A stretch of DNA of 64,000 nucleotides from positions 175,505 through 239,504 of the forward strand of contig CACLSR010000001.1 of NCBI GenBank assembly GCA_902609685.1, in the 5' to 3' direction. The notes beneath the pieces are model-generated. The model had not been told where the DNA came from, searched no databases, and worked only from the letters and a program-made list of their open reading frames with translations. This stretch comes from an uncultured Pelagibacteraceae bacterium (GTDB lineage Bacteria > Pseudomonadota > Alphaproteobacteria > Pelagibacterales > Pelagibacteraceae). The translations under genes and the position numbers were made by a program. This document shows, piece by piece, positions 1,320-25,539 of the stretch; the stretch's first letter is position 1, and each line of letters opens with the position of its first letter.

Positions 1320-2171
1320 ATGGAGATAGTAACAAAAATAGCACCTATCATACTCGCATTAATAATGTTGGGTTTAGGTTTGGGATTAAAGATTGACGAT
1401 TTTACGAGAATATTAAAAACTCCAAAAGATTTTTTTGTAGGTTTTTTTTCTCAATTAATTATTCTTCCATTAGTTGCTTACTTATTAGTTGTTATTTTAA
1501 AAGTACCGCCTGAAATAGCAATTGGAGTTATGATTATCGCTGCTGCACCAGGTGGAGTTACATCTAATATACTAACAAAATTTGCTAATGGAGATGTTGC
1601 TTTATCTATTTCTTTAACAGCTGTAATCAGTTTAATTTCTATTATTACCGTTCCTCTTATAATTTTTACATCTGCTGATTTATTTGGAATTACTGATATT
1701 TCTCAAAATATTTCAATGACTGGTATAGCACTAAAAATGTTTTTGGTTGTAACTGTTCCGGTAATCTTAGGAATGATTATAAGAAAATTTGCTGAAAATT
1801 TTGTAAATTCGAAAATTCAGATATTTGAAAAACTCAACATAATATTATTTGTTATTTTTTTTATAGCTGCATTTTATGAAGAAAGAGAAAGTTTTATAGA
1901 TTTTCTAATGCAAGCAGGTTTCATTACTTTTATTCTAAATATAACAATGATGATTGTGGCTTATTACCTTGGTAAAACTTTTGCCTCAGGAATAAAACAA
2001 CAAAAATGTATTGCTTTAGAATGTGGATTACAAAATGGTACTTTAGCAATATTTGTTTCGACACAAATATTCGGTACAGATATAGTCTACATAACTCCAA
2101 CAGCTGCATATGCTTTGATTATGTACATCACTGGTTTTATATTTGTTTTTCTTTTAAAAAATAAAGTTTAA
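1320..2171 (+). CDS. bile acid:sodium symporter family (SBF) transporter
   Basis: A 283-aa, very hydrophobic protein with about nine or ten predicted membrane helices, the usual size for bacterial SBF/BASS transporters. The family-typical segments AAAPGGVTSNILTKFANGD (about 75-93, the discontinuous sodium-site helix) and ECGLQNGTLAIFVSTQIF (about 237-254, with the conserved E-x-G-x-QN) are both present. Such proteins import organic anions with Na+; the substrate here cannot be read from sequence. The start is preceded by gaggggtc, a weak ribosome site. The stop overlaps the end of the convergent flavoprotein gene by four bases. Confidence 0.85.
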   Translation: MEIVTKIAPIILALIMLGLGLGLKIDDFTRILKTPKDFFVGFFSQLIILPLVAYLLVVILKVPPEIAIGVMIIAAAPGGVTSNILTKFANGDVALSISLTAVISLISIITVPLIIFTSADLFGITDISQNISMTGIALKMFLVVTVPVILGMIIRKFAENFVNSKIQIFEKLNIILFVIFFIAAFYEERESFIDFLMQAGFITFILNITMMIVAYYLGKTFASGIKQQKCIALECGLQNGTLAIFVSTQIFGTDIVYITPTAAYALIMYITGFIFVFLLKNKV

Positions 2172-4616: not shown

Positions 4617-5735
4617 TTAGTTATTGATTGCATCTCCTGGATTAACATATTCATGTCCAAAAACATCTGCAACCGCTTTATAAGTCACATGACCTTTGTG
4701 AACATTTAATCCTGCTAGAAAGTTTTTATCTTCACCAAGAGCTTTTTGATAACCTTTGTTAGCTAATTTTACCAAATATGGAAGTGTTGCTTTATTTAAT
4801 GCAATAGTGGAAGTTCTTGGAACTCCACCTGGCATATTAGCTACACAATAATGGACGACATTATCTACTATAAAAGTTGGATCATTAAATGTTGTGGGTT
4901 TGCTTGTTTCCACACATCCACCTTGATCGATTGCAACGTCAACAATGACAGAACCTCTTTTCATTAATTTAATCATATCTTTAGTAACTAACTTTGGTGC
5001 TTCTGCGCCAGGGATTAAAACTCCACCTACAATTAAATCAGCTTCAGCCACTAACTTTTTTAAATCTATTTTGTCACTTTGCTCTGGAATAATTTTATCT
5101 CCAAACATTTCAATTAATTGTTTTAATCTTGCTTCTGATTTATCGACAATGTGTACTTTTGCCTTCATACCAGTTGCTATTGTTGCAGCATTTTCACCTA
5201 CAACCCCTCCACCTAAAATTAAAACATTAGCAGGCTCACCGCCTGGAGCTCCTCCTAATAAAACTCCCCTGCCTTTTTGATTTTTTTCTAGACAATGTGC
5301 TCCTGCTTGAACTGACATACGCCCAGCTACAGCACTCATAGGTGCTAATAAAGGAAGTCGTCCATTATCATCAGTGATGGTTTCGTAGGCAATATTAATA
5401 CTTTTTGATTTTACCAAACCCTCAGTTAATTCTTTTGCAGCAGCCAAATGTAAATAAGTATAAACAATTTGATTTTCCCTAATCATTTCAACCTCAACTT
5501 TTTGAGGCTCTTTAACTTTTACAATTATCTCAGCATCATTAAAAATATCAGCAGCTTTTTCTATAATTTTTGCCCCAGCATTTTTGTACTGATCATTATC
5601 AAAACCTGCTTCAAAACCTCCGTTATTTTCAACTAAAACTTCATGACCCTCTGAAACGAGAGTTTTTACACTATCCGGTGTCAGGCCAATTCTATTTTCT
5701 TGAGGTTTAATTTCTTTAGGTACGCCAATTCTCAT
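4617..5735 (-). CDS. ald: alanine dehydrogenase
   Basis: A 372-aa protein, the normal Ald length. The N-terminus MRIGVPKEIKPQENRIGLTP is the family signature, the Rossmann loop is LGGGVVGENAAT near residue 175, and HLAAAKELTEGL carries the conserved active-site His near 96. It oxidises L-alanine to pyruvate and ammonium with NAD+. It lies 9 bp downstream of the omega-aminotransferase, where it would regenerate the pyruvate acceptor and release the amino nitrogen. That is the standard Tpa-Ald pairing in taurine dissimilation. The next gene begins 4 bp on, so co-transcription is likely. Confidence 0.92.
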   Translation of the reverse strand: MRIGVPKEIKPQENRIGLTPDSVKTLVSEGHEVLVENNGGFEAGFDNDQYKNAGAKIIEKAADIFNDAEIIVKVKEPQKVEVEMIRENQIVYTYLHLAAAKELTEGLVKSKSINIAYETITDDNGRLPLLAPMSAVAGRMSVQAGAHCLEKNQKGRGVLLGGAPGGEPANVLILGGGVVGENAATIATGMKAKVHIVDKSEARLKQLIEMFGDKIIPEQSDKIDLKKLVAEADLIVGGVLIPGAEAPKLVTKDMIKLMKRGSVIVDVAIDQGGCVETSKPTTFNDPTFIVDNVVHYCVANMPGGVPRTSTIALNKATLPYLVKLANKGYQKALGEDKNFLAGLNVHKGHVTYKAVADVFGHEYVNPGDAINN

Positions 5736-22253: not shown

Positions 22254-23354
22254 ATGAAAATAGAATTAACTGATAACAAAGTGTTTTTTGAAAAACAGGG
22301 TGCAAAAAAAGAAATTCACCCTTTTTGGCTAAGAGAACGGGTGAATAGCGAGAACTTTTTAGATCAAAAAACTCAACAAAGATTATTTGATCCAACAATG
22401 CTTAAAAGTAGCTCAGAAATTTCAAAAGTGAATATTTCAGATAAATTTCTTGAGGTAAGTTTTAAAGATGGTGCATACGCAAAACTAGTTATCGAAAATA
22501 TACTTAAAGAGTTTGAGAAAGATAATGAATTGTACTTTATCAATAAGATTTCATGGAAATCAGACTTTCAAAATAACAATATTTATAAGTTTAATAAAAA
22601 CTTTTTTGAGGAAAAAATAATGTACGAGTCTTTATTAAACTTTTACAAATATGGATTTGTTATATTTGAAAATGTTCCCACCCAAGATAACTTTATTGTC
22701 AATTTTGCTAATTCAATCGGAAGTATTAGACGAACTAACTTTGGCGAGTTTTTTAATGTTAAATCAAAACCAAATCCAAATGATCTTGCCTATACTTCAT
22801 TGCCTTTAGCACCACATACTGACAATCCTTATAGAAAACCAGTACCTTGTATACAATTGCTGCATTGCATCGAAAATGAAGTTGGTGGTGGCTTATCAAC
22901 ATTAGTTGATGGTCTTGCTGTAACGGAAGAATTAAAAAAAGAGCATCCAACTTTTTTCCAAATTTTGACCGAAATCAAAGTTAGATTTAAATTTGTCGAT
23001 GATAATGTTGTTTTAGAAGACTGGGCAGAAATGATCCAACTTGATGAAAACGGAAGACTTAAACAAGTCAGATTTAGTCCTCGATTAGATTTTGTGCCCT
23101 TAATGGATAAGGAAAAATTAGAATTATATTACGCAGCTAGAAACAAAATATCGGAAATGTACAACTCAGAAAAATTCAGAATTGAATTTAAATTAAAACC
23201 TGGTGATCTATTGATGATGGATAACTATAGACTTCTTCACGGCAGAACCGAATATAATGCTAATGAAGGTAATCGATTTTTACAAGGTTGCTATATAGAT
23301 TATGATAGCACTGAGGGAAAACTTAAACACTTGAAAAGAAAATTTGATATATAA
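22254..23354 (+). CDS. gamma-butyrobetaine hydroxylase-like Fe(II)/2OG dioxygenase
   Basis: A 366-aa protein with an N-terminal DUF971-like domain (IHPFWLRERV...FDP, residues about 20-100) and a TauD/TfdA catalytic domain. HTDNPY provides the His188/Asp190 iron ligands and LLHGRT the distal His329; Arg341 probably binds 2-oxoglutarate. This two-domain layout is typical of gamma-butyrobetaine or trimethyllysine hydroxylase. It could act on a trimethylammonium compound, fitting the betaine-rich gene content, but the substrate is not proven. Confidence 0.85.
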   Translation: MKIELTDNKVFFEKQGAKKEIHPFWLRERVNSENFLDQKTQQRLFDPTMLKSSSEISKVNISDKFLEVSFKDGAYAKLVIENILKEFEKDNELYFINKISWKSDFQNNNIYKFNKNFFEEKIMYESLLNFYKYGFVIFENVPTQDNFIVNFANSIGSIRRTNFGEFFNVKSKPNPNDLAYTSLPLAPHTDNPYRKPVPCIQLLHCIENEVGGGLSTLVDGLAVTEELKKEHPTFFQILTEIKVRFKFVDDNVVLEDWAEMIQLDENGRLKQVRFSPRLDFVPLMDKEKLELYYAARNKISEMYNSEKFRIEFKLKPGDLLMMDNYRLLHGRTEYNANEGNRFLQGCYIDYDSTEGKLKHLKRKFDI

Positions 23355-23355
23355 A

Positions 23356-23535
23356 TTATTTGTTAAAGCAATTGTTAACTAATATCGCCATTAATATCCA
23401 AATTACAAATGTTTCCCCATGACTAAATGTGTAGTCAGCTCCAGCAAAACCTGCTGCAATATTGATAGCGTAAATAATTATCGTAGAAACAATTAAGCTT
23501 ACAAGTAAGTTAATTAATCCTTTTACATATTTCAT
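23356..23535 (-). CDS. small two-helix membrane protein
   Basis: A 59-aa frame from ATG 23535 to TAA 23356. MKYVKGLINLLVSLIVSTIIIYAINIAAGF forms one long membrane helix; a short GADYTFSHGETF loop and a second hydrophobic segment (VIWILMAILVNN) follow. The composition is protein-like and the frame fills the gap behind the oxygenase gene exactly. Function is unknown. Confidence 0.55.
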   Translation of the reverse strand: MKYVKGLINLLVSLIVSTIIIYAINIAAGFAGADYTFSHGETFVIWILMAILVNNCFNK

Positions 23536-23630
23536 AATGAAACAATATAGATATTAAAACTCAATGCAATTTTTAATTTTCTATTTTTAAGTGAAGTTTT
23601 TTTAAGATGTGGGAAGACTAATAAATAGTT

Positions 23631-23880
23631 AGGTTGTATTCAAGAAATATATTTAATTAATTTGTAAATAAATATCTTGAATACAACCTTGCTGAAATTT
23701 AACTTCTAATTAAGGAGGTAGTTTTAATGAATCAAATGCCACCTGACACTTAGCTGGGTAGCTTTATATTTCATAAAAACGAAAACAAAAAACTTAAAGT
23801 CCATTCGGACTTAAATGCCATCAAGGCGACTTAAGGGAGCTCTTTTGGCTGGAGAGCAAAGGGGCGATCCCTTAAGTAAA
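23631..23880 (+). ncRNA. candidate structured RNA / leader element of unknown class
   Basis: The stretch is richer in G and C than surrounding spacers and full of stems. A perfect 15-bp inverted repeat lies at 23631-23645 with 23675-23689. A hairpin aagtcc-attc-ggactt lies near 23796-23811. A gcc/ggc hairpin lies near 23818-23828. A perfect 10-bp closing stem (acttaaggga with tcccttaagt) lies near 23829-23880 and encloses a gctct/agagc stem-loop. A perfect Shine-Dalgarno (aaggaggt) and an 8-codon ORF lie inside. Strand is assigned from the mini-ORF. No Rfam family is recognised; a riboswitch, attenuator or trans-acting RNA is possible. Confidence 0.55.
23727..23753 (+). CDS. 8-codon mini-ORF with perfect Shine-Dalgarno (possible leader peptide)
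   Basis: The ORF is ATG at 23727 to TAG at 23751, peptide MNQMPPDT. It is preceded at a 7-bp gap by aaggaggt, a full complement of the 16S rRNA tail, which is rare in this window. The following bases remain readable in other frames, including a 27-codon ATG frame at 23815. This could be a leader peptide that couples translation to RNA folding, or the start of a recoded gene. There is no direct proof of translation. Confidence 0.35.
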   Translation: MNQMPPDT

Positions 23881-23886
23881 TTGAAT

Positions 23887-24594
23887 TTACATTTTTAAAA
23901 TTCGGCAAATTAATTTATCTTTAAAATTTAGTCTTTTGCTATATTTCCTGTTGATTTCGCTTATTCCTTTTAAAATATCTGCATTACTTAAATTCAATAA
24001 TGTTGAAATGTATCGATTTTTAATCATTTCCACATATTTCTCTCTCGATATTTTTACTTTAAAAGAAAATGTTTTTGAAATATTTCCGGGATATAAACTA
24101 TTTATATATCTCAGTATTTTTTGATCTCTTTTAAGGGATTTGCTCAATTTATTTTTCATTTTTGCAAAAGTTGGAATTTCATTGTTAGATGTGGATAAAG
24201 TAAATATTGCTATTCGACCACCAAAATTAAGGCTATTTATACATAGCAAAAGTAGTTTTTTTATATCTTTAAGTGGTAAAAAATGAATTGTTTGTTTTAG
24301 TAAAATTAAATCAAATTTTTTTCTATTCTTTTTTAAGTAACTTATTGCATCTGTTTTATTAAAAATAATTCTTTTATCTCGATCTTTATGTTGCTCAATA
24401 TCAATACCTATTGGCTTATTAGCCAATCTAAGCTTAGATCTTAGATTTCCTAATATCTTACCTCTGCCACATCCAATATCTAAAATTTCAGAATTCTTAC
24501 TGAGTTTAGTTTCTTTAATTAAGAATTTGTTAAATGATTTAATATAATTAATTGATGAAAGCCAAGTTTTATTGTCCCAATTCTTTAATGACAC
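23887..24594 (-). CDS. class I SAM-dependent methyltransferase
   Basis: A 235-aa protein. SEILDIGCGRGKILGNLRSK (about 36-55) is motif I binding SAM, PIGIDIEQH the acidic loop, and FDLILLKQTIHFLPLKDIKKLLLLCINSLNFGGRIAIFTLS motifs post-I to III. The substrate is unknown. The start overlaps the DUF4396 gene by 10 bp, so it is translated from the cupredoxin operon. Confidence 0.85.
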   Translation of the reverse strand: MSLKNWDNKTWLSSINYIKSFNKFLIKETKLSKNSEILDIGCGRGKILGNLRSKLRLANKPIGIDIEQHKDRDKRIIFNKTDAISYLKKNRKKFDLILLKQTIHFLPLKDIKKLLLLCINSLNFGGRIAIFTLSTSNNEIPTFAKMKNKLSKSLKRDQKILRYINSLYPGNISKTFSFKVKISREKYVEMIKNRYISTLLNLSNADILKGISEINRKYSKRLNFKDKLICRILKM

Positions 24595-25035: not shown

Positions 25036-25539
25036 TTAATTTATATCAACTTTAGCAATCATTCCAACTTGATAATGACCAGGAACATTGCAAGCTACTT
25101 CAATGTTTACTGCGTTATCAAATTTCCAGATGATTTCTCCCTTTTGATTTGGTTCAAGCAAAACACTATTGCTGTGTGAATGACCCATGGCTTTATCCAT
25201 TTTTGCCATTTTTTTCATTTTTTCTTTATCAATGGAATCAGCTAATAAAATTTCATTTTCAACCATTTTAATCATTTCTGGTTGATGTTTCATATGCATC
25301 ATTTTATTTGCAATATTAAATTCGTGAACAAGCATGCCAGCATTTTCCACTTCAAATTTAATTGTTTCACCAGCTTTAATTTGAAATGAACTTGGTTCAT
25401 AATAGTTGTCATACATCACAACTTTAACTACACGTGAGATTTCACTTTCTTTACCCTTAGAGCCTATTTTCATATTTTTATCAGCAAAGGCAAATGTATA
25501 AGTAAATAAAAAGATAACTAAAAATTTAAATATTTTCAT
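25036..25539 (-). CDS. periplasmic cupredoxin with Met/His-rich insert
   Basis: A 167-aa protein with a Sec signal peptide (1 to about 19). The mature part is plastocyanin/azurin-like. Type-1 copper ligands are readable as His in VHEFNI and Cys, His and Met in ACNVPGHYQVGM. Between them lies a segment rich in Met and His (MMHMKHQPEM and KMDKAMGHSHS), reminiscent of copper chaperones. It probably carries or buffers copper or electrons in the periplasm. It is first in the operon with DUF4396 and a methyltransferase. Confidence 0.85.
   Translation of the reverse strand: MKIFKFLVIFLFTYTFAFADKNMKIGSKGKESEISRVVKVVMYDNYYEPSSFQIKAGETIKFEVENAGMLVHEFNIANKMMHMKHQPEMIKMVENEILLADSIDKEKMKKMAKMDKAMGHSHSNSVLLEPNQKGEIIWKFDNAVNIEVACNVPGHYQVGMIAKVDIN

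Follow-up and report, generated by a model that had tools for sequence, protein, structure and literature searches.

The 23631-23880 region of the window, that is, of the whole 64-kb stretch of DNA analysed here (from a host genome of 1.19 Mb), holds what sequence comparison identifies as a conserved free-standing small gene of Pelagibacteraceae, on the plus strand. Its RNA is predicted to be short (about 165-180 nt) and to carry a micro-ORF followed by a folded 3' domain. The structured RNA is real and lies outside Rfam, the unexpected part of the locus is a conserved gene of 6-11 codons, and it is very probable that a functional plus-strand micro-ORF with a linked folded RNA exists. The explanation towards which we lean, with somewhat more belief than doubt, is a small RNA whose micro-ORF would make the ribosome pause on PP(D/E)T-stop and whose folded 3' domain would act in trans. 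This preference is no firmer because one statement joins the existence of the element, of which we are nearly sure, to a pausing mechanism that is rather less likely than not when taken by itself. The element extends from a divergent promoter pair to a last hairpin, and the features of the locus, its two neighbouring genes included, are as follows.

23356-23535, minus strand: small membrane-protein gene (59 aa), which shares the divergent promoter region
23615-23643, minus strand: predicted leftward promoter, -35 TTGAAT (23643-23638), 17-nt spacer, -10 TAGTCT (23620-23615)
23631-23689, no strand: inverted repeat with two -35 regions facing away, AGGTTGTATTCAAGA ... TCTTGAATACAACCT
23677-23705, plus strand: predicted rightward promoter, -35 TTGAAT (23677-23682), 17-nt spacer, -10 TAACTT (23700-23705)
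23712-23719, plus strand: Shine-Dalgarno sequence AAGGAGGT (GGAGG in 67/68 aligned members, AAGGAGGT in 49/68)
23727-23753, plus strand: micro-ORF of 8 codons, MNQMPPDT*
23754-23796, plus strand: A-rich linker, 29-51 nt long in relatives and 49.5% A
23797-23812, plus strand: hairpin H1, AAGTCC-ATTC-GGACTT, 6/6 pairs with double-sided changes in alignment A4 (see below)
23817-23827, plus strand: hairpin H2, GCC-ATCAA-GGC, 3/3 pairs with double-sided changes in A4 and none in alignment A2
23833-23873, plus strand: hairpin H3, outer stem AAGGG/CCCTT, inner stem GCTCTTTTGG/GCAAAGGGGC, small internal loop
23887-24594, minus strand: methyltransferase-domain protein, a convergent neighbour outside the element, with 13 nt between its stop codon and the point where the model ends H3

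The stretch had been singled out in a sequence-only reading as a candidate novel RNA on account of its G/C content and its stems. The former holds for the 166-nt core at 23711-23876 (40.4% GC, in the top 2.9% of the window) but not for the 250 bp as a whole (33.2% versus a window mean of 31.3%, 35% of 250-bp windows being equally high). The stems are indeed there, namely a 15-bp repeat (23631-23645 / 23675-23689) and an acttaaggga/tcccttaagt stem, the outer stem of H3, which in the window reaches 23829-23877. A 301-nt region folds well below its shuffles (z -8.2, 0/100), as does the likely RNA alone, 23706-23885 (z -3.6, 0/200). The supposition that nothing long is encoded overlooked the conserved 8-codon ORF, and the flanking genes, described as convergent, are both on the minus strand in tandem; the plus-strand RNA is divergent from the small membrane gene and convergent with the methyltransferase gene. 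A tRNA or tmRNA identity was dropped since ARAGORN found neither in the window.

Compensatory change was looked for in relatives found by a Shine-Dalgarno plus micro-ORF pattern, 142/145 instances of which came with sufficient flanking sequence and were reduced by thinning to 57 sequences (A1). A MAFFT alignment of 46 of these (A2) leaves out 11/57 that are divergent, and two more were removed to give A5; the 11 were put back in A4, from which a stricter limit kept out three weak opposite-strand matches present in A3. The proposed stems do show compensatory changes. In A2, 95.0% of cells pair and 9/24 pairs have changed on both sides, with 84 double-change cells versus a shuffled mean of 24.7 (0/500 shuffles), further pair types being no better than shuffles (270/500). 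In A4, whose 68 sequences are fitted to a covariance model and hence lean towards it, the figures are 19/24 pairs and 155 double-change cells versus a shuffled mean of 38.1 (0/500), and all five covariation measures lie above every shuffle. Double-sided changes affect 10/15 pairs of H3 in A4 and 7/15 in A2, and in the acttaaggga/tcccttaagt stem, for which such a check had been proposed, pairs swap between A-U and G-C. Controls in which the stems were slid along A2 and A4 gave much lower covariation than the proposed stems. Given no structure at all, RNAalifold on the untrimmed A1 returned 16 pairs, 9 of them with double changes, which fall in H1 and H3 and not in H2. Inverted repeats arise easily in AT-rich DNA and one member of the family has decayed (see below), yet the notion that all this is a chance structure, a repeat or a gene remnant, to which we give practically no credence, is refuted by the covariation together with frame and codon conservation and single-copy occurrence in two genera.

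The impression that the RNA fits no known class is borne out by Rfam 15: at the gathering threshold there is no match in the window, nor at the element's position in any of 20 homologue loci. When 23540-23950 was scanned permissively, 20 matches appeared, all below gathering scores, the best being microRNA-type hairpins on the inverted repeat, and locus L273 has no Rfam match at E up to 1. Among the 20 loci Rfam recognises only a glycine riboswitch, which in a locus of the sister genus (L217, 9333-9420) lies close to the element. A model of the hairpins only (R3) has matches in 110/258 genomes, each of them, when listings were compared by eye, at the place found by the full model R1, only one being in the sister genus; three further weak matches are on the opposite strand at the same loci. 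In none of the 258 genomes searched with R3 did the hairpin domain turn up apart from the micro-ORF side, and since every match sits at an R1 place, hairpins and micro-ORF appear to be inherited together.

Which strand carries the folded RNA can be judged from pairs that only one strand tolerates. On the plus strand, G-U cells outnumber A-C cells by 83 vs 18 in A4 and 48 vs 16 in A2, nearly all of the signal coming from the inner stem of H3 (at the level of clusters, G-U 25 vs A-C 3 at 18 clusters in A4 and 7 vs 2 at 9 clusters in A2) and none from the other stems; these counts suggest that the H3 inner stem belongs to a plus-strand RNA. H1 has a second aspect, which goes beyond the sequence-only reading: a T-rich tail comes after it on the minus strand in 63/68 members and on the plus strand in 0/68. 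Read on the minus strand, the linker supplies this tail and makes the site terminator-like, and in a search for intrinsic terminators on this strand H1 was the only hairpin to qualify (63/68). Given this tail, H1 may also end the convergent transcript, and its covariation may serve the convergent gene. It could accordingly be proposed that the folded part works mainly on the minus strand, as 3' UTR and terminator (H1) of the convergent gene or perhaps as a 3'UTR-derived small RNA, the micro-ORF being a separate overlapping gene. The minus-strand tail of H1 and a convergent stop codon at a median of 9 nt from H3 would agree with this, but the structure persists where unrelated genes have taken the place of the convergent one, the G-U pairs of H3 fit the plus strand, the loops are A-rich on that strand (by eye) and in the R3 search the hairpin domain did not occur apart from the micro-ORF, all of which make such an arrangement quite unlikely. 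As an observation in its own right, the terminator-like H1 (23797-23812, minus strand) is kept while the gene it faces is swapped for unrelated ones. On the plus strand, H3 has a T-rich tail in 25/68 members, which points to no clear terminator after it.

The micro-ORF is conserved to a degree that can be quantified in a set of 71 non-redundant members (the 68 model-aligned ones plus three more of the sister genus), which is less biased than the pattern set. The ATG, the frame and a PPDT, PPET or LPDT ending followed by a stop are kept in 70/71, the ORFs having 6-11 codons. Among the 70, the ending is PPDT in 60, PPET in 6 and LPDT in 4, and the stop is TAG in 56, TAA in 9 and TGA in 5. Variation in the second Pro, the Asp/Glu and the Thr codons is confined to third positions, the first Pro codon is CCA in 60, CCG in 6 and TTG in 4, and the change from CCA to TTG in four members is the sole one outside third positions in the last four codons. 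The N-terminal part varies in residues, and its length differs by whole codons. In all 145 pattern instances an in-frame ATG lies 3-11 nt downstream of GGAGG. Start, frame and stop are therefore kept in 70/71 with mostly synonymous changes near the C-terminus, and because frame and ending are kept and changes are almost exclusively at third positions, selection probably acts on the amino acids. Since the models learned from members picked out with a pattern that includes the PPDT codons, they favour the same letters; the best check on this bias comes from the sister genus, with MSPPET* and TGA or TAA stops in 6/6 genomes, and from the LPDT clade, neither of which fits the pattern. The exception among the 71 is locus L220 (genome G152), where both Shine-Dalgarno sequence and ATG are gone and the inner stem is weakened; this decayed copy (5291-5439) looks as if both parts go together. 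Readthrough or frameshifting past the micro-ORF stop was rejected, as in-frame stops follow soon after in several clades (alignment, by eye). A hairpin masking the start codon (AUGAA with UUCAU in the linker) was also considered; TTCAT is present in only 20/68 linkers. A gene of this size escapes both an ordinary ORF listing (30 aa and up) and Rfam.

Conservation of this kind raises the question of whether the peptide is itself the product, made from a gene the size of mccA and acting, or being modified, after release, with hairpins that would only stabilise or end the messenger. The peptides do share a conserved C-terminal PDT/PET behind an N-terminus of variable length and composition, and a messenger with a stable 3' structure would present the same picture. 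However, by eye the conservation of the stems and the H2 loop exceeds what simple stabilisation would seem to require, and no modifying enzyme is consistently adjacent, the neighbours being different, so that we regard a released micropeptide as an improbable product of the locus.

Upstream of the micro-ORF lies the most prominent stem of the stretch, the 15-bp repeat, which is the sole perfect one of at least 14 bp with arms no more than 60 bases apart in the 64-kb window. It is here that the proposal of a novel structured RNA, otherwise supported as regards a conserved RNA, has to be amended, for this stem is probably not RNA structure. The left arm (GGTTGTATTCAA) is exact in 47/57 aligned relatives and the right arm (TTGAATACAACC) in 22/57, no joint change of the arms is seen across the 57 aligned upstream regions, and the distance between them is kept in these regions, with a single-base gap seen once, in L108. 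As the arms change independently, fall on -35 boxes and fit promoter geometry, an RNA hairpin at 23631-23689 was rejected. The stem is best read as promoter DNA, with two putative divergent sigma70-type promoters whose -35 boxes form the inverted repeat. On the leftward side, TAnnnT occurs exactly 17 nt from the TTGAAT position in 57/57 relatives, and in 0-6/57 when the remaining spacings from 10 to 25 were tried. On the rightward side the spacer is 17 in 41/57 and 16 in 12/57, the highest other count being at 10 nt, where 18/57 also carry TAnnnT. A simple consensus scan of 23350-24000 (at least 9/12 consensus bases) reported neither promoter, its two matches, one of them inside the micro-ORF region, being fewer than the 3.8 in shuffles and thus at chance level, so that the promoter claim is one of conserved spacing. 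The view that the RNA needs a promoter of its own was right, and one of conserved geometry is present. Its transcript would be expected to start near 23711-23713; the GGA of the Shine-Dalgarno sequence lies 28-39 nt, mostly 30-33 nt, downstream of the rightward -35 box, and the RNA should therefore begin almost at the Shine-Dalgarno sequence itself. A wider role of the repeat as a regulon motif was rejected, TTGAATACAACC with one mismatch being no commoner than a reversed-pattern control in six genomes.

The leftward promoter (23615-23643, minus strand) is the best conserved upstream feature. In the window's clade it faces the small membrane-protein gene; it is also kept in clades without a close gene start on that side, where its transcript would be antisense to the 3' end of the neighbour. 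A second, leftward transcript from this locus is possible. Relatives of the 59-aa membrane gene, which has no Pfam match, lie to the left of the element in 48/145 instances. This gene itself falls below the limit of the neighbour count, which took ORFs of at least 60 aa and left out those overlapping the element by more than 60 nt; so counted, the left-hand neighbour is divergent in 33/64 and directed towards the element in 31/64.

Wherever the flank of an A4 member is long enough to tell, the right-hand neighbour is convergent (67/67). The median distance from its stop codon to H3 is 9 nt; distances of 191 and 709 nt occur in one member each (in L217 a 70-aa minus-strand ORF reaches about 70 nt into the element, and the 191-nt figure is that of the next gene). 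These neighbours belong to several families, including methyltransferase, DUF952 and, by eye, aminotransferase-like and transporter-like proteins; others had no Pfam match in the first 90 residues, the part that was tested. Although attenuators are likewise built of a leader peptide with hairpins behind it, the convergence in 67/67 means that the element is no ordinary leader, and a cis-acting riboswitch or attenuator of a downstream gene is very unlikely. No co-oriented gene lies directly downstream in these members; L277, which we take to be from IMCC9063, differs. There, outside A4, a co-oriented 68-aa ORF with a signal-peptide-like start begins 77 nt downstream of the element, the sole plus-strand ORF seen directly downstream of a copy. 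A leader could be read into this locus, but the ORF has no counterpart beside the element in the five other loci compared.

The element is found within the SAR11 group. BLAST against 100 relatives and the genome itself gave matches in 37/101, several of them partial. In a scan of genome contigs with the micro-ORF pattern, the named relatives among the matches listed (80 of at least 118 stretches) are all Pelagibacteraceae or Pelagibacterales (SAR11). The Shine-Dalgarno plus micro-ORF pattern occurs in 156/399 sampled genomes of the genus and in 36/57 of those at least 90% complete, with no reversed-pattern control among the matches listed for the 399. Covariance model R1, run on 298 genomes of the order from 11 genera, matches 122 of them at one place each (119 in the window's genus and 3 in a sister genus). 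The wider model R2 matches 6/6 sister-genus genomes and, in the class (218 genera), 3/289 genomes, all of the window's genus. Stricter filters were used in the R1 order, R2 class and R3 searches, with loss of weak matches. In 20 near-complete genomes of the window's genus missed by R1, R2 gave no convincing match; weak ones in 9/20 (E 0.035-0.096) were rejected because by eye they seemed unrelated, mostly coding and devoid of the PPDT codons. Its absence from these 20 genomes means that the element is dispensable. Our reading of this distribution is of an element that would be old in the family, mostly vertically inherited and lost in some lineages. A mobile or phage nature is not suggested, with one R1 match in each of the 122 positive genomes; the pattern has no match in viral contigs, and the DNA has no phage match. 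Contig C11 of G350 has two identical pattern matches in opposite orientation, 1393-1433 (minus) and 25138-25178 (plus), either a duplication or an assembly artefact.

How might such a gene work? Conservation, the frame and codon pattern, covariation, co-inheritance, the divergent promoter geometry and the lack of a consistent downstream gene all come from comparison, from which transcription and translation of the locus are inferred. The scenario that we favour would begin with a micro-ORF starting directly downstream of a strong Shine-Dalgarno sequence near the very 5' end of the RNA. The ribosome would pause at PPD/PPE close to the stop codon, its occupied or vacant position would govern how stable the 3' domain is or how it folds, and the latter would then act in trans as a small RNA without Hfq. 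The element would in effect resemble a leader-peptide attenuator minus its downstream gene, now a free small RNA reporting the translation state. In the pause data of an E. coli ribosome-profiling study, PPD is found only among pausing PPX sites and PPE sites appear in the pause table, strong pausing being confined, in cells lacking EF-P, to a small subset of PPX motifs on which upstream residues decide (PMC4140641). In the present family 66/70 peptides end in PP(D/E) and 4/70 in LPD, and the residues upstream of PP(D/E)T vary among members. A Pro-Pro pause is not universal, as the four LPDT* members make plain, and this weakens the Pro-Pro argument. EF-P is encoded in the host genome, and in E. 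coli EF-P-dependent pausing can alter transcription termination and coupling (PMC5021804). A classical Hfq-dependent small RNA is unlikely because Hfq (PF17209) gave no match in this one 97%-complete genome, the control matching in 5/14 genomes. Going one step further, pausing might let the free structured RNA report EF-P activity or translation capacity, making the element a new translation sensor, an idea that we advance as speculation. If true, this would be a sensor in very abundant ocean bacteria, in cells without detectable Hfq, and one of the shortest conserved genes, with six codons in the sister genus (MSPPET*). The general question that can be put to the test is whether a peptide of 6-11 residues can owe its conservation to what it does within the ribosome and not to a role once released. 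Streamlining is extreme in SAR11 genomes, HTCC1062 having a median spacer of 3 nt (PMC2704228), which is why a free-standing RNA that is conserved and served by divergent promoters of its own stands out in them.

The element also occurs in genomes that presumably correspond to cultured strains, G443 to HTCC1062 and G502 to IMCC9063. The G443 copy lies on the minus strand at 762690-762861 (R1), and its convergent neighbour matches DUF952. According to the survey of Meyer et al. (2009), the 335-bp spacer 762678-763012 (27.76% GC) between SAR11_0785 (plus) and qacH (minus) has 76 BLAST hits and is listed in Table 1 with no assigned RNA, only regions with more than 200 hits having been screened further (PMC2704228); SAR11_0785 is described as a DUF952 protein (PMC2864753). 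The HTCC1062 copy probably sits in this spacer, listed yet left unassigned. That survey did report structured RNA candidates in P. ubique, the SAR11_0636 element and other motifs, one of them thought to be separately transcribed; the SAR11_0636 element is at 622388-622552, a place other than that of the probable HTCC1062 copy (PMC2704228). No description of the present element was found in the openly available main text of papers on RNA in Pelagibacter, on small RNAs from metatranscriptomes and on leader peptides, and as far as seen it has no published name.

Known systems resemble parts of this architecture. Microcin C is made from mccA, a gene of some 7 codons with a hairpin behind it. The element shares the conserved tiny gene and the hairpin but not the consistently adjacent modification and export genes; its peptide ends in PDT and not Asn, and it occurs once per chromosome across a family. 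Arrest peptides of the TnaC and MAGDIS type are encoded by short ORFs with conserved residues next to the stop codon, and the same placement in the element would suggest stalling at or near termination; unlike them, it has no consistent regulated gene downstream. The third system, rnTrpL of Sinorhizobium meliloti, with its peptide peTrpL, is reportedly an RNA with a role in trans of its own. It is an attenuator-derived small RNA with a leader peptide that is itself needed in trans (PMC7298713). Of a tiny ORF in a free small RNA acting in trans, the element shows the tiny ORF and the free-standing position. The two are set apart here by description, the sequence comparison being that with Rfam: the element has no trp-like gene downstream, its micro-ORF has no stretch in which one codon recurs, nor repeated regulatory codons of the Trp kind (there is no Trp in any peptide listed), and its peptide is shorter and different. 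What they have in common is an alphaproteobacterial origin and a short RNA, predicted in the present case, with a tiny ORF and a structured 3' part (PMC7298713).
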